Origin: a virus
Direction: 5' to 3' (one strand)
Length of the DNA: 35,634 nucleotides
Virus record (IMG/VR): IMGVR_UViG_3300006733_000030
Location: 1 to 35,634 of that record
Below the pieces are notes generated by a model. That model had not been told where the DNA came from and made no database searches. It was given only the letters and a program-made list of their open reading frames with translations. Both the position numbers and the translations under genes were made by a program. This document shows, piece after piece, positions 1 to 34,998 of the stretch. Each line of letters starts with the position of its first letter. The first letter of the stretch is position 1.

Positions 1-270
1 AGAGATTATACACCTTTTTCAGACGGACATAGAGAGTGTGTGCCAGTAGATGGTAAGCCTGTTGGAGCATTAACAGCACAGGCAATAGCAAAGGACAGCT
101 TAATTGGTAACGAAACAAAAATCCGCAGATTAACCCCTACTGAATGTGAAAGACTACAAGGATTCCCTGATGGCTGGACGGATGGAATAAGTGATACACA
201 GAGATATAAAACCTTGGGTAATGCAGTTACTGTGAATGTTATAAGAGAAATAATGAAGACATTAAAGTAA
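1..270 (+). CDS. C5-cytosine DNA methyltransferase, C-terminal part
   Basis: The frame is open from base 1, so the 5' part is missing. The C-terminal 89 residues carry the last conserved blocks of cytosine-C5 methylases: motif IX-like RRLTPTECERLQGFPDGW and motif X-like RYKTLGNAVTVNVI. Motif IX supports the target-recognition domain; motif X helps bind S-adenosylmethionine. The catalytic PC motif would lie upstream and cannot be seen. A complete protein would methylate cytosine and probably shields phage DNA from restriction (inferred). The gene ends in the 45-base sequence that recurs at the end of the window, so it may be an alternative allele of the terminal locus. Confidence 0.85.
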   Translation, partial: RDYTPFSDGHRECVPVDGKPVGALTAQAIAKDSLIGNETKIRRLTPTECERLQGFPDGWTDGISDTQRYKTLGNAVTVNVIREIMKTLK

Positions 271-312
271 AAACATTTAACATTAAGTAATATGCAAGAA
301 ATATTGGATACA
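268..312 (+). repeat. 45-bp direct repeat, left copy
   Basis: These 45 bases are identical to 35590-35634. The left copy starts at the stop codon of the methylase gene and the right copy at the end of the 3D-domain gene. It may be the join of a circular assembly, a shared linker next to a variable cassette, or less likely an attachment core, since no integrase is seen. Confidence 0.9.
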
Positions 313-330
313 TTCACTAGAAGACCTTAG
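292..330 (+). pseudogene. short remnant ORF between linkers
   Basis: ATG after the TAATATG-type junction opens a 12-residue frame ending at TAG. In another frame the same DNA gives LEDLRDQINKNINS followed by the linker stop. That resembles the C-terminus of the protein at 1541-1843 (EQILKNINS). I read this as the stump of a linker cassette after deletion or frameshift, not as a working gene. Confidence 0.3.
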
Positions 331-349
331 AGACCAAATTAATAAAAAC

Positions 350-363
350 ATAAATAGTTAAGT
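350..363 (+). repeat. stop-start linker, copy 1
   Basis: ATAAATAGTTAAGT, with ATG two bases further on at 366. The 14-mer has TAA, TAG and TAA in three different frames. This copy has GT between motif and ATG. Confidence 0.85.
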
Positions 364-365
364 GT

Positions 366-917
366 ATGGAAAAATCAAAATGTTGTGAGTCTAAAATTTT
401 AACTGTAAATTTAGGATCAGAGGTTGGCGATAGAAATAAAGGTGAACTTCAAAAAATACCACCACATATACTCATGGTTGATGTTTGTTCTAATTGTGGA
501 ATTATTGTAAAACAAGAAACAGGTAGCATTTTAGATAAAAAACTCCAAGAAGTATCAAAAGAATTTGAGGATTTTTCTGATAATGTGTGGCAGGTGAAGT
601 ATAGGGAGATGTCAGTAAATGAATTATTAGGAAAACAAAAACAATTTATGATAGAAAAAATTAAAGAATGTTGTGAGTTTGTTGTGCCAGAAAAAAAACA
701 ACAATTTGAGAATAATGACCATGAAATTGTTGGCTGGAACGAGTGCCGAGAACAAATATTAAAAAACATAAAAAAACAAATAAACTGGTGCATGTGTACT
801 GAGCTTTCAGCGGTAGCCAGAAACATGAAGTCAACATGCTCTAAGTGTGGTGGAGATGACGCTTATGGTACTTCTTCGCAAAGACCAGCTGAATATAAAA
901 AGAGAATTAAAACATAA
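366..917 (+). CDS. small zinc-ribbon accessory protein, probably a fusion
   Basis: 183 residues, no family recognised. The N-terminus has KCC followed by a second CSNC pair near residue 42, a likely treble-clef or zinc-ribbon site. A further CSKC pair lies near residue 158. The first residues (EKSKCCES) match the protein at 1236, so the two share an N-terminal module. Near residue 130 the sequence EQILKNI and its DNA match the end of the 1541 gene just before its linker. Here the linker has lost its stops, so the frame runs on into a second cysteine-bearing segment. This suggests two cassettes fused by loss of a linker. No SD precedes the ATG. Confidence 0.7.
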   Translation: MEKSKCCESKILTVNLGSEVGDRNKGELQKIPPHILMVDVCSNCGIIVKQETGSILDKKLQEVSKEFEDFSDNVWQVKYREMSVNELLGKQKQFMIEKIKECCEFVVPEKKQQFENNDHEIVGWNECREQILKNIKKQINWCMCTELSAVARNMKSTCSKCGGDDAYGTSSQRPAEYKKRIKT

Positions 918-927
918 ATAGTTAAGT
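914..927 (+). repeat. stop-start linker, copy 2
   Basis: ATAAATAGTTAAGT directly abutting ATG at 928. The first TAA (915-917) is the stop codon of the preceding gene. Confidence 0.85.
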
Positions 928-1086
928 ATGAAAAAACCAAGCATAAAAGACATCTACGGGTATATTATTGGTGACTACCAGAGTATCTACTACACAGAAA
1001 ACAATGGGCTGTGTGGACCAAGATATTATAATGTCATACTGGACTTCGTACACGACATTGTTTGGAAGTTGAGATATAAAAAATAA
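928..1086 (+). CDS. small hypothetical protein (52 aa)
   Basis: Short frame set between two copies of the linker. The product is tyrosine-rich (several YY and IY pairs) with a basic end (WKLRYKK). No motif or family is recognised. The argument for a real gene is its position: it starts at the linker ATG and its stop lies in the next linker, as for its neighbours. No SD is present. Confidence 0.55.
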   Translation: MKKPSIKDIYGYIIGDYQSIYYTENNGLCGPRYYNVILDFVHDIVWKLRYKK

Positions 1087-1096
1087 ATAGTTAAGT
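1083..1096 (+). repeat. stop-start linker, copy 3
   Basis: ATAAATAGTTAAGT immediately before ATG 1097. The stop codon of the 928 gene (1084-1086) is the first TAA of the motif. Confidence 0.85.
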
Positions 1097-1234
1097 ATGA
1101 TAAAACATAAAACTTACTGTAGGTTATCCTTAGTTCGTGACAGCAAATTTTGTCCTTTGTTGCTTGTTAAGTTAATTGATTATATAAGGTACAAATATTA
1201 TATTGAAAAAATAAATAAAAATAACACAATATAA
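1097..1234 (+). CDS. small basic hypothetical protein (45 aa)
   Basis: Starts at the linker ATG and ends one base before the next ATG (TAA-T-ATG junction). The product is basic, with two cysteines and a tyrosine/lysine-rich tail. No family recognised. Support is positional only. Confidence 0.5.
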   Translation: MIKHKTYCRLSLVRDSKFCPLLLVKLIDYIRYKYYIEKINKNNTI

Positions 1235-1235
1235 T

Positions 1236-1538
1236 ATGCAAGAAGAAAAATCAAAATGCTGTGAATCAGATGTAAGTGTCATTGGTGACACAACCAAATA
1301 CTACAAATGCAAGTTATGTGGAAAGGCTTGTGATTTATCAACAGAGGCAAAAGAATACAAAGATTTTGAAGTAAGGAAAGTTACTGATATAACTGGTCAT
1401 TATTGGGCTTTTATTGATTGTGAAGGTTATGAATTTGGGAGTTGTCGCAGAAAAATTGACTCAAATTCTGAAGATGGCTATTCCTATGAGGAAGCAAAAG
1501 AAAGGGCTGAAAAATTATTTAAGCACATAAATACCTAA
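1236..1538 (+). CDS. zinc-ribbon accessory protein (100 aa)
   Basis: The N-terminal third has KCCES, then YKCKLCGKAC, a CxxC-type zinc knuckle. The rest is acidic and charged, with GYSYEEAKERAEKLF, which looks like a closing amphipathic helix. The start of the protein is nearly the same as the 366 protein (KSKCCES), so they are probable paralogues or share a swapped module. Function unknown; nucleic-acid or protein binding would be usual for such ribbons (inferred). The stop lies in a variant linker, ATAAATACCTAAAT. Confidence 0.75.
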   Translation: MQEEKSKCCESDVSVIGDTTKYYKCKLCGKACDLSTEAKEYKDFEVRKVTDITGHYWAFIDCEGYEFGSCRRKIDSNSEDGYSYEEAKERAEKLFKHINT

Positions 1539-1540
1539 AT

Positions 1541-1843
1541 ATGCTAGAACAAATCATAAAAAAAACAATGAAAGAGTTTGATTTAATGTTTGGAGAGTGT
1601 CCAGTTGGTAGCGTTAAGTATAAGAAGAGAGAGGAGATCAAACAATTCATCAAGGAAAACTTTGTTCCAAAAAGTGAGTTGGAGAAAGGAATAGGGGTGT
1701 TAAGGCAAATAATTAACGAGGACTACAAAAAAAATTTGATTGATAATAAGGATATAGTTCGATGGCTTGGTGTTGATCTGGAGATAGAGAATAACCTTTC
1801 AGATGAGATTAAAGAACAAATATTAAAAAACATAAATAGTTAA
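1541..1843 (+). CDS. hypothetical helical protein (100 aa)
   Basis: Highly charged, predicted mostly helical from its heptad-like lysine/glutamate pattern. No family recognised. The ATG follows the variant linker by 0 bases. The C-terminal EQILKNINS is encoded by DNA that continues straight into linker copy 4, and the same 23 bases up to the linker recur inside the 366 gene, so the end of this gene belongs to the repeated unit. Confidence 0.65.
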   Translation: MLEQIIKKTMKEFDLMFGECPVGSVKYKKREEIKQFIKENFVPKSELEKGIGVLRQIINEDYKKNLIDNKDIVRWLGVDLEIENNLSDEIKEQILKNINS

Positions 1844-1845
1844 GT
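1832..1845 (+). repeat. stop-start linker, copy 4
   Basis: ATAAATAGTTAAGT followed by AT and ATG at 1848. The stop of the 1541 gene is the third-frame TAA of the motif (1841-1843). Confidence 0.85.
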
Positions 1846-1847
1846 AT

Positions 1848-2030
1848 ATGGATAAAATAAAAGCGTGGGCGTTCTTAGCTGAGAAGGATAAAGATAAATA
1901 TTTTGTGACTGATGAAGGTGCAACAGCGTTAATATATCTTAAAAAACCTAAACCAAGAACTAACCCATTTGATTATTTCAACCATGGCTTAAAGTGGAAA
2001 CCAACAAAGATAGAAATAATAAATAAATAG
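1848..2030 (+). CDS. hypothetical protein (60 aa)
   Basis: Short basic protein with a KKPKPRTNPFDYF centre. No family recognised. Placed exactly between linker copies 4 and 5; its stop TAG is the middle stop of copy 5. Confidence 0.6.
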   Translation: MDKIKAWAFLAEKDKDKYFVTDEGATALIYLKKPKPRTNPFDYFNHGLKWKPTKIEIINK

Positions 2031-2036
2031 TTAAGT
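2023..2036 (+). repeat. stop-start linker, copy 5
   Basis: ATAAATAGTTAAGT abutting ATG 2037. The preceding gene stops at the TAG inside it (2028-2030). Together with copies 2, 3 and 4 this shows all three stop frames of the motif being used. Confidence 0.85.
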
Positions 2037-2261
2037 ATGGAAAAAAACAAACGAGACATAAACTACTATAGTGGCTTACTAAAAATTATGGCAGATGAGT
2101 TAAATGTTCATGAGGTTGTTATATTAAAAGCTGAAACAGAAGAAGGGGAATTAAAGGTTTACTATGATAAAAAGGAAGGCAGAGTGATGACAATGCTTGG
2201 AGGACAAGAGACTTTTTCTAATGCTATTGCTCTCAATGTGTGTGAACAGCAGTTTAGTTAA
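2037..2261 (+). CDS. hypothetical protein (74 aa)
   Basis: Small mixed alpha/beta-looking protein with a charged N-terminus and a strand-like VVILKAE / ELKVYYDKK region. No family recognised. It stops just before linker copy 6 (TAA at 2259-2261), the only gene of the set whose own stop is outside the linker. Confidence 0.6.
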   Translation: MEKNKRDINYYSGLLKIMADELNVHEVVILKAETEEGELKVYYDKKEGRVMTMLGGQETFSNAIALNVCEQQFS

Positions 2262-2263
2262 TA

Positions 2264-2277
2264 ATAAATAGTTAAGT
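2264..2277 (+). repeat. stop-start linker, copy 6
   Basis: ATAAATAGTTAAGT, then AT and ATG at 2280. Last exact copy; junctions further right use TAATATG or AAATATG instead. Confidence 0.85.
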
Positions 2278-2279
2278 AT

Positions 2280-2741
2280 ATGAAGCCTAAGTCAGCAATA
2301 CAAAAAGGAAAGCTGTTAGAGGACTATATAGCTGACCAAATAAAAGAGAAGGGGTTAGACCCAAAGGCGTGTAGATCTGCTGGTTCAGGTTCTGGCAACA
2401 GAGAAAAAGCTGATATAAATACTTCACTTGTAATACTAGGAAGAAATGTTGGTATTGAAGCAAAGAACCACAAAGTCCCTCACATAAAAGACTGGTGGAA
2501 GCAAACACAGAAGCTGGAAGTGCTTGGTAGAGAGCCTGTATTGGTCTATAAATTGGCTGGAGAGAGCTTTGGAGACTCAAAGGCTGTAATATACCTAAAT
2601 ACATTGCTAGACCTTATTAAACTGGCAAATACTGGAGACTTTAGAGAGCCAGTAGATGACAAAACTGAAAGTAGGGAGATGTTGTGGAAGCTTAATAATT
2701 TAAAGAATGCTATAAAGCAGTTAGAGAAGGAGTTAAAATAA
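2280..2741 (+). CDS. PD-(D/E)XK nuclease, resolvase-like
   Basis: 153 residues. The sequence has the spacing of a PD-(D/E)XK nuclease: E14 in the first helix (GKLLEDYIAD), D45 (EKADINTS) and E60-A-K62 (VGIEAKNHK), followed by strands and a helix (KDWWKQTQKLE). This layout is usual for phage Holliday-junction resolvases and related VRR/RecB-type nucleases. The likely role is cutting branched DNA during recombination or packaging; a restriction-like role cannot be excluded. It is the last gene of the linker series and the only one with a clear enzymatic fold. Confidence 0.65.
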   Translation: MKPKSAIQKGKLLEDYIADQIKEKGLDPKACRSAGSGSGNREKADINTSLVILGRNVGIEAKNHKVPHIKDWWKQTQKLEVLGREPVLVYKLAGESFGDSKAVIYLNTLLDLIKLANTGDFREPVDDKTESREMLWKLNNLKNAIKQLEKELK

Positions 2742-3096: not shown

Positions 3097-3125
3097 TGGA
3101 CAAAGACATTCATTTATGCTATAAT
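3097..3125 (+). promoter_or_regulatory. sigma-70 promoter, extended -10
   Basis: TGGACA (3097-3102), 17-base spacer, TATAAT (3120-3125). The -10 is preceded by TATGC, an extended -10 context shared with the sites at 18118 and 19762. A start near 3132 would give a short RNA ending at the terminator at 3213-3222. Confidence 0.7.
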
Positions 3126-3152
3126 ACATGTATAAAGTGAAGAACTTCTACC

Positions 3153-3206
3153 ATGCGTACTAAATTTAAATATAAAAAGACTAACACTCGATTTTGTGAA
3201 GATTAA
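3153..3206 (+). CDS. putative 17-aa basic leader peptide
   Basis: ATG at 3153 opens a short frame (MRTKFKYKKTNTRFCED) that ends at 3206, within the right arm of the terminator hairpin. Ribosomes finishing this peptide would cover the hairpin, the geometry of translational attenuation. No SD is visible. It could also be chance. Confidence 0.3.
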   Translation: MRTKFKYKKTNTRFCED

Positions 3207-3222
3207 TCGTGTGCTTTTTTTT
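3185..3222 (+). terminator. rho-independent terminator
   Basis: Arms 3185-3193 and 3205-3213 pair over nine positions with one T-T mismatch, with an 11-base loop, followed by eight T (3215-3222). Confidence 0.75.
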
Positions 3223-3227
3223 GTTTG

Positions 3228-3370
3228 TTAACTGACGGTGGATGAAAAAGAAATCAAGTAAGATATAACAACCCAAATTTCGAATGGAGCAGACTCATTG
3301 GTTACGACTAAGTGAGCATGCAATTACTGAGGGATTGGAAAAGTTCTTTCCTTTGTCCGTCGTCAGTTAA
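3228..3370 (+). ncRNA. structured RNA closed by a 16-bp stem
   Basis: Bases 3228-3243 pair with 3355-3370 (ten Watson-Crick pairs from TTAACTGACG, then six more with three wobbles). They enclose about 110 bases without a good reading frame. Inside are a six-pair hairpin (CTCATT...AGTGAG) and a GGAAA/TTTCC hairpin. The region follows a terminator and precedes a small gene. Length and closure suggest a folded RNA element, but no known family is recognised. Confidence 0.45.
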
Positions 3371-3378
3371 TAGAGTAT

Positions 3379-3603: not shown

Positions 3604-3813
3604 ATGACAGACAAAAAGAGCGAGGGGGTTAAAAAAGAAGAAACCACAACAGATGAGGCTAAGGCTTTAATAGCTAAAAAGAACGCTGAGGACATTGCAG
3701 CGTGTACAGAGGGCCTAAAGGCACTATTAGAGGAGCATGGTTGTGACTTCAACATTACAATGACAATTTCTCCTAGAGGGAACCAACCAAATATACAAAT
3801 AATCAAGAAATAG
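3604..3813 (+). CDS. hypothetical protein (69 aa)
   Basis: Charged N-terminus, a helix (ALIAKKNAEDIAACTEGLKALLEEHG), then a strand pattern (DFNITMTISPRG) with a proline/asparagine-rich tail. The helix followed by a strand of alternating residues recurs in small phage proteins of unknown function. Lies three bases before the next gene. Confidence 0.65.
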   Translation: MTDKKSEGVKKEETTTDEAKALIAKKNAEDIAACTEGLKALLEEHGCDFNITMTISPRGNQPNIQIIKK

Positions 3814-4127: not shown

Positions 4128-4145
4128 TAGGAACAATTATTGATA

Positions 4146-4397
4146 AGAGATATACAACGTATCAAGTGCCGTGATCAGTGACTTACGGTAGATAATATAA
4201 GCGACTGGAGCTGAATGAGGTAGCTCACTCCCACCATTAGTATATAAGCTTTTGTATATTATTGGGGTGAGTGAAACCAGAGACTCATGCAAGGCTCACC
4301 ATCATAGTGATGTCTAACAACATTAAGATAGTCTCTAAGTGGAAGGGGGACTAGGCGATGTAAACTTGATGCTACATAGTATGGTGGAAGTATCTCT
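4146..4397 (+). ncRNA. group I intron-like structured RNA
   Basis: About 250 bases with no credible coding frame. AGAGACT (4279-4285) pairs with AGTCTCT (4330-4336), and the 3' strand is preceded by TTAAGAT, as in the R and S elements forming P7 of group I introns. A P8-like hairpin CATCA/TGATG (4300-4312) sits between them. Upstream, a long hairpin pairs 4234-4245 with 4254-4265, extended by 4224-4228 with 4267-4271. Another hairpin is 4169-4174/4183-4188, and ends 4146-4152/4391-4397 pair over seven bases. P3 (GAGCT 4208-4212 with GGCTC 4293-4297) is weak and P4/P5 are unresolved. It encodes no homing nuclease. Confidence 0.5.
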
Positions 4398-4433
4398 GGT
4401 ATTAAATTAGGAATGATTCCTAAATAGAAAACT

Positions 4434-31680: not shown

Positions 31681-31906
31681 AATGGAAGACATTAAAAAAA
31701 TAGGCGAGCTTGACTGGGCAACATTCAAGCACAAGTTCGAGGTAAACGGACTAAACAAGGGCAAGCTAACACAAGAGCAGTATGTTGACCTGTGTGAGCT
31801 TTATACAGCCTTGAAGTCAGGCGACACTACGCCTAAAGAATACTTCAATAATGTTGTTGAGGGTACATGGATACCGACAGTGGAGGGGGTAGAGAAGATT
31901 ATATGA
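31670..31906 (+). CDS. hypothetical protein (78 aa)
   Basis: Charged helical protein (KIGELDWATFKHKFEVNGLNKG). Preceded by AGAGGAGA ten bases upstream, one of the few SD sites outside the 16.4-18.1 kb block. The stop overlaps the next ATG (ATGA). Confidence 0.6.
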   Translation: MKIKMEDIKKIGELDWATFKHKFEVNGLNKGKLTQEQYVDLCELYTALKSGDTTPKEYFNNVVEGTWIPTVEGVEKII

Positions 31907-32034
31907 GCCATGAAATAAGGTGTAATAAGTGTGGAGGTCAAGCATACAAGCAAGACGAAGACGGTAGAAAAATGGTTTATTGCACTACTTGTGGGGATAA
32001 ACAACTACTAAAAGAATATAATAGAAAAATATGA
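31903..32034 (+). CDS. zinc-ribbon protein (43 aa)
   Basis: CNKC near the start and CTTC about 20 residues later: a minimal zinc ribbon. Overlaps both neighbours by four bases, so expressed with the methylase that follows. Confidence 0.6.
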   Translation: MSHEIRCNKCGGQAYKQDEDGRKMVYCTTCGDKQLLKEYNRKI

Positions 32035-32972
32035 GAGCAGTTAATTTATTTGGAGTTCCACAAGTTGACGAGATAATAGTTCCAGCAATGCCATATATGG
32101 GCAATAAAAGAAAGTTGGCAACAAAAATATTAAACTCAATTTATAATACTGTTGGAGACTTTGGAAATCTATATGACTTGTTTGGTGGTGGTGGCTCAAT
32201 GAGTGTTGCTGGATTGTTAGCAGGACATAATGTATATTATAACGAATTGAATACTGGTATTTATAATTTACTGAAGTATATAAAAGGTGGTGGTGAGTTA
32301 CCCCGCAAGTGGATAAGCAGAAAAGAGTTTAACAAACACAAACATGGTGATGACTGGTATTCTGGCTTTATTAAGTGTTGTTGGAGTTTCGGGAACAATC
32401 AACAAGGCTATTTATTTGGAAAAGACATTGAAGAGTTAAAAAGACAAGCACATGAATATCAATTAAAAAATGGATATGACTGGACAAGCGAAAAAAGAAA
32501 CGAGTTATTAAGTGAATTTAAAGAAAAAGAAGGGATAAAAGGAAGATTTGGATTAGAGCAATTAGAGCGATTAGAGCGATTACAGCGATTACAGCAACTA
32601 GAGCGATTAGAGCGATTACAGCAACTAGAGCGATTAGAGCGATTACAGCAACTAGAGCGATTAGATCTTTCAAACAAAAGCTATGATGATGTTATCATAA
32701 GTAACAGATCTGTTATATATTGTGACCCCCCATATATAAACACTGCTGGCTATCAAGAAGGAAAAGATTTTGATTATGAAAAATTTTATAGTTGGTGTTT
32801 AGACAATGAAAATCCTGTGTTTATATCTGAGTATAATATGCCAGGCGATTTTAAGTGTATATTTGAAGTTGAGCATAGATCAACATTATCTTCAACAGCA
32901 AACAACAAAGTGGTGGAAAAGGTATATTGGAACGGAAAAAATTTATCCACAGGTGGGAATAATAGCTATTGA
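32031..32972 (+). CDS. D12-class (Dam-type) adenine DNA methyltransferase with Leu-Glu-Arg repeat insert
   Basis: 313 residues. AdoMet region PYMGNKRKLATKIL (21-34) and YDLFGGGGSMSVAG (48-61), YNELNTGIY, then catalytic CDPPY near 231-235: an alpha-class D12 methylase that modifies adenine. Between about residues 175 and 212 sits a repeat of LERLERLQQ, coded by DNA at 32554-32666 with perfect 27-base units. Similar repeats are known in other D12 methylases. Slippage would change the length in frame. Probable roles are protection from restriction or DNA marking. Confidence 0.9.
   Translation: MRAVNLFGVPQVDEIIVPAMPYMGNKRKLATKILNSIYNTVGDFGNLYDLFGGGGSMSVAGLLAGHNVYYNELNTGIYNLLKYIKGGGELPRKWISRKEFNKHKHGDDWYSGFIKCCWSFGNNQQGYLFGKDIEELKRQAHEYQLKNGYDWTSEKRNELLSEFKEKEGIKGRFGLEQLERLERLQRLQQLERLERLQQLERLERLQQLERLDLSNKSYDDVIISNRSVIYCDPPYINTAGYQEGKDFDYEKFYSWCLDNENPVFISEYNMPGDFKCIFEVEHRSTLSSTANNKVVEKVYWNGKNLSTGGNNSY
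32554..32666 (+). repeat. 9/27-bp tandem repeat inside methylase
   Basis: Basic unit TTAGAGCGA (Leu-Glu-Arg) and its TTACAGCAA/GA variants; 27-base units at 32599-32625 and 32626-32652 are identical, with degenerate units around. In-frame, so the copy number can vary without frameshift. Confidence 0.85.
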
Positions 32973-33892: not shown

Positions 33893-34264
33893 ATGATTGA
33901 TAAAAAATTTATAATCAATTTACAGGGTAATGATTTTGTAAAGTTTGAAGGATTATTAAACGAGTTCCATGCTAACGGTGGGAAGTCAATTGTCACAGAA
34001 ATAGTATCAACAGAGCCGTTCATTGTAAGAGCGACAGTTGAAGGAGAAAAGGGAATGTACCAAGGAATGGGTGATGCTGACGAAAAGAATGTGAATAAAA
34101 TGATAGTAAAACACAAAATAAGAATGGCTGAAACAAGAGCAATAGCCAGAGCGTTGAGATGGTATAACAATATCGGAATGTGTAGTGCTGATGAACTTGG
34201 TGGAAGTGATGACAAGCAAGTAACTAATAATGCACCTACTGGGTTTCCAGCTAATAGATTATAA
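33893..34264 (+). CDS. Rad52/ERF-like annealing or recombination protein
   Basis: 123 residues. Start FIINLQGNDFVKFEGLLNE, strands (TEPFIVRATVEGEKG), then the block NVNKMIVKHKIRMAETRAIARALRWYNNIG found in short phage proteins related to single-strand annealing and Rad52-like proteins. It probably binds single-stranded DNA at forks or ends. Exact family is uncertain. Confidence 0.65.
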   Translation: MIDKKFIINLQGNDFVKFEGLLNEFHANGGKSIVTEIVSTEPFIVRATVEGEKGMYQGMGDADEKNVNKMIVKHKIRMAETRAIARALRWYNNIGMCSADELGGSDDKQVTNNAPTGFPANRL

Positions 34265-34632: not shown

Positions 34633-34998
34633 ATGTATAATATTACACTTAGCGGGAAAATGAACATCCCGCACAAACTAGACGAAGAAAAAGACATTAG
34701 CTTTGTGTGTAAGAGAGCTGGTCTAACAAGTATTAGCAGAAAGCCACAAAGTGTTGATGGCACAGAGGAAGACATAACCTATAGGTATAAGAACTTAGAT
34801 GAAATTACAATTATTCAGGAAGACAAGGTGGTTTTTGGTAAGCCAAGAAAAGGAAGTTTGTCACAGGTGCTAAAGTTCCTGTTGAACGATATCTATAATG
34901 AACAACATGCTGGTGGTGACGAGTATGCGGATGAAGAAGACTATTATAAAAAAGAAATGCTTAAAATAATAGAAGAGAAGAAACAAGAATTAATATAA
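34633..34998 (+). CDS. hypothetical protein (121 aa)
   Basis: Begins YNITLSGKMNIPHKLDEEKDISFVCKRAG, then a beta-strand region (DGTEEDITYRYKNLDEITII) and an acidic/helical tail. No family recognised. The beta-rich first half suggests a small nucleic-acid-binding or regulator protein. It follows the structured RNA by three bases. Confidence 0.65.
   Translation: MYNITLSGKMNIPHKLDEEKDISFVCKRAGLTSISRKPQSVDGTEEDITYRYKNLDEITIIQEDKVVFGKPRKGSLSQVLKFLLNDIYNEQHAGGDEYADEEDYYKKEMLKIIEEKKQELI

Follow-up and report, generated by a model that had tools for sequence, protein, structure and literature searches.

Linkers and genes of the array

The window, that is the whole stretch of 35,634 nucleotides that was analysed (IMG/VR record IMGVR_UViG_3300006733_000030), is a phage contig with genes for TerL, head, tail, helicase-loader and helicase. 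Close to its left end lies an array of small genes, in which the 14-mer ATAAATAGTTAAGT occurs in six exact copies on the + strand within 2 kb, accompanied by a seventh, variant copy, ATAAATACCTAAAT, with three mismatches (Table 1). The ATGs that follow open reading frames of 45-183 aa and lie 0 nt from the linker for the copies at 914, 1083 and 2023 and the variant at 1527, and 2 nt from it for those at 350, 1832 and 2264, which confirms the placement given in a preliminary description of this DNA. All copies share one orientation and one array, no further exact copy was found in the 35.6-kb contig or the whole record, and the sole match with one mismatch (13633, - strand) falls within a coding gene. 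Under a Markov-2 model of the contig, the expected number of copies per strand is 0.001 contig-wide and 6e-5 in 2 kb. An assembly artefact was ruled out as the source of the linkers, as 14-bp repeats with unique flanks are not made by assembly.

The three stops of the 14-mer (TAA, TAG and TAA) occupy all three reading frames. Genes upstream end at the first TAA (917 and 1086), at the TAG (2030) or at the second TAA (1843; for the variant, 1538), so that an upstream gene, in whichever frame it is read, comes to its end 2-12 nt short of the following ATG. The earlier proposal of a junction that stops translation in any frame and immediately starts it again is thus a direct reading of the sequence, with the caveats that the gene 5' of the linker at 2264 already stops at 2261, just short of the linker, and that only a gene remnant, and no intact gene, precedes the linker at 350. 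Of shuffled versions of the motif 3.4% had stops in all three frames, as did 1.8% of other leader 14-mers and 0.17% of all 14-mers in the window. Taken by itself this property is unusual but not extreme, and it is the identity and placement of the copies that exceed chance.

Table 1. Linkers, genes, remnant and repeats of the array, in window coordinates
Feature	Position	Strand	Remarks
Linker copy 1, exact	350..363	+	next ATG 366
Linker copy 2, exact	914..927	+	upstream stop TAA 915-917; ATG 928
Linker copy 3, exact	1083..1096	+	upstream stop TAA 1084-1086; ATG 1097
Variant linker ATAAATACCTAAAT	1527..1540	+	upstream stop TAA 1536-1538; ATG 1541
Linker copy 4, exact	1832..1845	+	upstream stop TAA 1841-1843; ATG 1848
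Linker copy 5, exact	2023..2036	+	upstream stop TAG 2028-2030; ATG 2037
Linker copy 6, exact	2264..2277	+	upstream stop TAA 2259-2261, before linker; ATG 2280
Small gene, 183 aa	366..917	+	no confident family; N-terminus KSKCCES resembles gene 1236-1538
Small gene, 52 aa	928..1086	+	no family
Small gene, 45 aa	1097..1234	+	
Small gene, 100 aa, CxxC-type	1236..1538	+	starts at TAATATG-like junction, not at a linker
Small gene, 100 aa	1541..1843	+	end EQILKNINS (then stop) from reading into linker
Small gene, 60 aa	1848..2030	+	no family
Small gene, 74 aa	2037..2261	+	no confident family
RusA-like Holliday junction resolvase family gene, 3' of last linker	2280..2741	+	phrog_244, E 3.9e-13
Gene remnant	292..361	+	start MQEILDTF..., other-frame end LEDLRDQINKNINS (then stop)
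24-nt exact repeat, copy inside gene 366-917	749..772	+	
24-nt exact repeat, copy from end of gene 1541-1843 into linker copy 4	1813..1836	+	
45-nt direct repeat with stop-start junction TTAAGTAATATG	268..312	+	identical to last 45 nt of contig
45-nt direct repeat, other copy, contig end	35590..35634	+	

Repeats and gene remnants

The array and its flanks carry a number of further repeats. The remnant ahead of the first linker shares its start (MQEILDT) with the gene at the contig's right-hand end, whilst its other-frame end, LEDLRDQINKNINS, resembles the end of gene 1541-1843. A 62-nt repeat with 79% identity joins 319-380 to 1801-1862, which identifies the sequence 5' of linker 1 as the end of a gene similar to 1541-1843. 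The copies of the 24-nt repeat at 749 and 1813 diverge inside the linker, and in 300 simulated sequences no repeat was longer than 18. The 45-nt direct repeat stands both at 268-312 and at the very end of the contig, and the methyltransferase region therefore lies between direct repeats. Repeats and remnants of this sort are the traces that would be expected from duplication, deletion and insertion at repeated junctions, but they do not prove that these took place. The D12-class methyltransferase gene itself (31867-32972) contains a low-complexity LERLQQLERL stretch that is the source of repeated 13-mers, e.g. ATTAGAGCGATTA.

An array of this kind could be the product of descent only, a gene and its linker having been duplicated together and the genes having since diverged or been replaced. 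The linker would then be uniform because the expansion is recent, and would have no role other than that of an ordinary A/T-rich leader that lacks an SD. Some members of the array are indeed kin, as judged from the N-termini (KSKCCES) of the products of genes 366 and 1236 and from the duplication of gene ends (319/1801 and 749/1813), and the pattern ATAAATA...TATG is near to ordinary leaders of this phage group, such as ATAAATAATATGG, which is found three times in L175, a near relative. However, the genes attached to the linkers are orphans whose products are mostly without recognisable kinship to each other, and yet the 14-mer is identical in six out of six copies; furthermore, in the repeat at 319/1801 the linker is conserved at 14/14 positions as against only 22/31 in the preceding 31 nt. 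The presence of an independent linker in sister phages (see below) also argues for a function or a recurrent process, and we consider descent alone to be a rather unlikely explanation.

Relatives and ordinary gene starts

Over about 93% of its length the TerL of the contig shares 46-48% identity with the TerL of HTVC010P-type pelagiphages, but membership of the HTVC010P group is not claimed because the protein encoded just downstream of TerL, in the portal region, had no match in pelagiphages. By TerL the nearest IMG/VR relatives are L175 (89%), L176 (81%) and L177, L178 and L179 (79%), with L180 at 57%, and a TerL genome scan for clues as to the host returned only distant prophage-like relatives from several phyla. 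The TerL match in L177 is broken at residue 387 by about 0.94 kb (L177:11152-12095, also in L178 and L179), which holds an HNH-type gene and may be an intron or intein.

An SD match of at least 4 nt precedes 14% of the long + strand genes of the window; in three pelagiphages the figure for the main coding strands is 46-70%. A T stands directly 5' of the ATG in 97% of the 35 long + strand genes, and the corresponding figures for a T before the start codon are 88% in L176, 83% in L190 and 28-45% in the pelagiphages. Ordinary junctions are tight, with a gap of 1-3 nt, and among those listed TAATATG occurs seven times, the others being TAAATATG or TAAAATATG. The missing SD and the T with which the linker ends, as before 97% of the long genes, might be taken to indicate an initiation signal imposed by the host in place of the Shine-Dalgarno site, and the preliminary description had suggested that the linker could substitute for the SD. 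As a special role this is not supported, since most genes of the genome have no SD and start without a linker, from short A/T leaders with no trace of the 14-mer. The property is that of the array and not of the genome or the host, and a host-imposed signal, largely refuted in this way, must be regarded as very improbable. The linker is instead a special, longer junction of this array and not a genome-wide start signal. No comparable repeat was found in the three pelagiphages with related TerL.

A hypervariable locus

The genes 34633-34998 and 3604-3813 of the window stand at opposite ends of the contig, but their L177 homologues are adjacent, with 16 bp between them. The contig ends therefore adjoin on a circular map and, relative to L177, the methyltransferase fragment, the linker array and the RNA-like region together make up an insertion of >4 kb. 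In conjunction with the 45-nt repeat, this synteny suggests that the map is circular and has a gap at the methyltransferase gene, with direct repeats on either side. Upstream of its own 3604-3813 homologue L175 carries other, unrelated small genes and no fixed linker, and no confident homologues of the linker genes were found in near relatives, nor did searches with genes 366, 1236 and 2280 yield useful relatives. Judged by gene content, therefore, the array locus is hypervariable among relatives.

It had been proposed that the linker makes small genes freely exchangeable. The hypervariability of the locus and the remnants that abut linkers are in keeping with this; against it, no relative carrying ATAAATAGTTAAGT was present among the IMG/VR matches listed, although very near records may lie outside the search. 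The listed matches to the 14-mer or 16-mer are single and scattered, with no array among them, although several are found again in related contigs. A gene order preserved in the absence of the motif, which would have told against exchange, was not encountered, as the relatives that lack the motif lack the genes as well. In a scan of 236 viral stretches, an 11-mer common to at least four ORF leaders was found only in the window and in L180, and such arrays are therefore uncommon. Two further repeats were considered as similar linkers and rejected, that of L166 (TTGTCAGACCCCTATG) as it does not resemble a gene-start junction and that of L131 as it is coding sequence.

Two regions with predicted RNA structure lie to the right of the array. 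At 3097-3378 an extended sigma-70-like promoter (11/12; 3097-3125) is directly followed by a noncoding region with predicted structure (z -2.39), and a small RNA just past the linker array is possible. The noncoding region 4128-4433 has a strong predicted RNA structure (z -2.84) with no Rfam match, and L177, L178 and L179 carry a stretch of about 200 nt of it, with 81-82% conservation, upstream of TerL.

A different linker in sister phages

The small genes of the L180 accessory array are separated by a different repeated junction, about TAACCCCYTAATTCTTAAAGCCATTATG, the fuller form of which is about TAACCCC[CT]TAATTCTTAAAGCCATTATG; shorter forms end in CTATATG and longer ones extend to about 57 nt. 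Exact copies number nine in L180 (hereafter G001, IMGVR_UViG_3300031952_000027), four in G003 (IMGVR_UViG_3300032069_000056) and two in G002 (IMGVR_UViG_3300005573_000020), and in both G001 and G003 they are confined to one accessory array. Upstream genes of G001 enter this sister linker and end in ...LTP and a stop, in a stop alone or in ...HNS and a stop, at different stop codons. The core stops cover two frames; all three are covered only in those copies that are preceded by an additional TAACC, and some copies lie 21-26 nt from the ATG.

G001 and G003 have in common a block of about 660 bp that is about 98% identical and includes two genes with 100% protein identity over the aligned part. 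The block terminates at a linker variant, TTAATCCTTAAAGCCAGCAC, past which the next homologous gene drops to 50-77% identity per 30 nt. A further match of 46 nt consists of upstream flank and linker and is followed by unrelated genes. The same linker precedes different genes in the two phages, and only one weak protein similarity was detected between their arrays. Gene exchange that stopped at the sister linker can thus be seen between G001 and G003, with one clear breakpoint, which is a small sample. The exchange at the linker that was originally envisaged is accordingly seen at the analogous linker of a related phage, but was not observed at the 14-mer of the window. In G003 a single-base deletion 13-18 nt 5' of a linker moves the stop of the upstream gene from the first TAA to the second, and, unless it is a sequencing error, this frameshift would be a natural example of a frame-independent stop.

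Elsewhere in G001 a mostly intergenic stretch of 167 nt (2069-2235, the reverse complement of L286) is 96% identical to G003, whilst the genes beside it have about 67% protein identity. This may be an exchanged regulatory element of a second kind.

Known repeats at phage gene boundaries

A number of repeated elements have been described from tailed viruses with which the linker may be compared. The SAS of Cluster K mycobacteriophages is a 13-bp repeat, present in 11-19 copies in the non-structural gene region only and situated no more than a few nt from start codons, whose consensus GGGATAGGAGCCC contains the SD core AGGAG; about half of the copies have upstream 17-bp inverted repeats (ESAS), and the stop of the gene upstream at times falls within the SAS (Pope et al. 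2011, PMC3203893). With the SAS the linker shares many near-identical copies just 5' of the starts of non-structural genes in one orientation. It lacks, however, the AGGAG core and the 17-bp inverted repeats of the ESAS, having no conserved upstream element, and RNA folding of the linker junctions gave no stable structure or stem-loop; it differs from the SAS as described in carrying a stop in every frame, in directly adjoining the ATG and in being restricted to a single 2-kb array. The stop function, which had been put forward as new, is so only in part, as stops inside the SAS had been marked before (PMC3203893), but the portion of that paper relied on does not speak of stops in each of the three frames.

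Boundary sequences have been proposed to account for phage mosaicism but are not findable at most mosaic junctions (PMC3029335). They are short homologies at gene boundaries where modules recombine, and the sister linker of G001 and G003 behaves likewise; the same sequence is found next to different modules in different genomes in the case of G001, G002 and G003. The linker of the window differs in having many copies per array and in carrying translational stop and start signals. The nearest known kin of the linker are the SAS and boundary sequences, and it would work like both. It misses, however, the defining sequence features of the SAS, and recurrence next to different modules in different genomes, which marks a boundary sequence, was seen only for the sister linker.

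Cluster A stoperators (L5, Bxb1) are repressor-bound and present in 24-34 copies genome-wide (PMC3029335). Like the linker they are of 13-14 bp, asymmetric, intergenic and in one orientation, and this likeness, shared with the start-associated sequences, together with TAAATA at the position of the -10 box of a leaderless transcript, could be held to favour a protein-binding or transcription element (a leaderless promoter, an operator or a stoperator-like site) that merely happens to be located at gene starts. Against this, the six linker copies all fall inside 2 kb of what looks like a continuous operon, with none at other transcription starts; a scan of the + strand detected no sigma-70-like sites at linkers, alignment of the upstream regions showed no conserved sequence except A-richness, sister phages use an unrelated sequence, and no integrase or repressor family was found among the proteins scanned, a subset of the ORFs. 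A transcription element is an unlikely reading. The PeSL of T4-type phages, ascribed to Arbiol et al. in 2010, is reportedly a repeated intergenic element, composed of an early promoter and a stem-loop, that is said to have been proposed as a shuffler of small early genes. At the linkers, unlike PeSL, neither promoter nor stem-loop was found. Intergenic repeats of the HF1-group haloviruses are long and A/T-rich, with demonstrated promoter activity (PMC7230728), and resemble the linker in their A/T-richness and in lying between genes of a tailed virus, but they differ from it in their length and promoter activity and in not being stop-start junctions.

A probable stop-start junction and recombination boundary

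On balance the 14-mer is probably a lineage-specific, frame-independent stop-start junction that serves also as a short recombination boundary in a hypervariable accessory locus, a reading for which we have a modest preference on the evidence of sequence. An upstream gene ends 2-12 nt from the ATG in any frame, so that ribosomes could reinitiate, and small genes would be kept translated in tandem by termination-reinitiation irrespective of the frame of an inserted gene. The SD-poor genome, with ordinary stops 1-3 nt before the ATG, would provide the setting for termination-reinitiation. The repeated linker would at the same time offer a short homology where recombination is harmless and a place to land that tolerates any frame, and accessory genes could be gained, duplicated, lost or swapped there without damage to their neighbours. 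The linker may have spread with the genes that it borders, its uniformity being maintained by selection and/or recombination. For the lineage of the window we infer exchange at the 14-mer from the duplicated gene ends that abut linkers. The gene directly after the last linker encodes a RusA-like Holliday-junction resolvase.

It has long been asked by what means phages exchange small genes and leave the adjacent ones intact, and a linker that ends every frame at the next start would be a concrete and testable route to frame-tolerant swaps. The second, unrelated linker, with a recombination end at it and a frameshift that it catches, lifts the idea above a curiosity. It is possible, though this is offered tentatively, that tailed phages of SD-poor hosts have converged on a design in which each lineage uses an arbitrary repeat of its own as stop-start junction and recombination boundary for plug-in accessory genes, the window and L180/G003 being two independent cases. 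Linkers of this type could serve as a marker for hypervariable accessory loci in uncultured phages.

The gene at 33893-34264 encodes a conserved small protein (79% in L177) that resembles a protein of a Rossellomorea phage whose annotation is DNA repair and recombination. It is possibly a single-strand annealing protein, the predicted structure being of low confidence.
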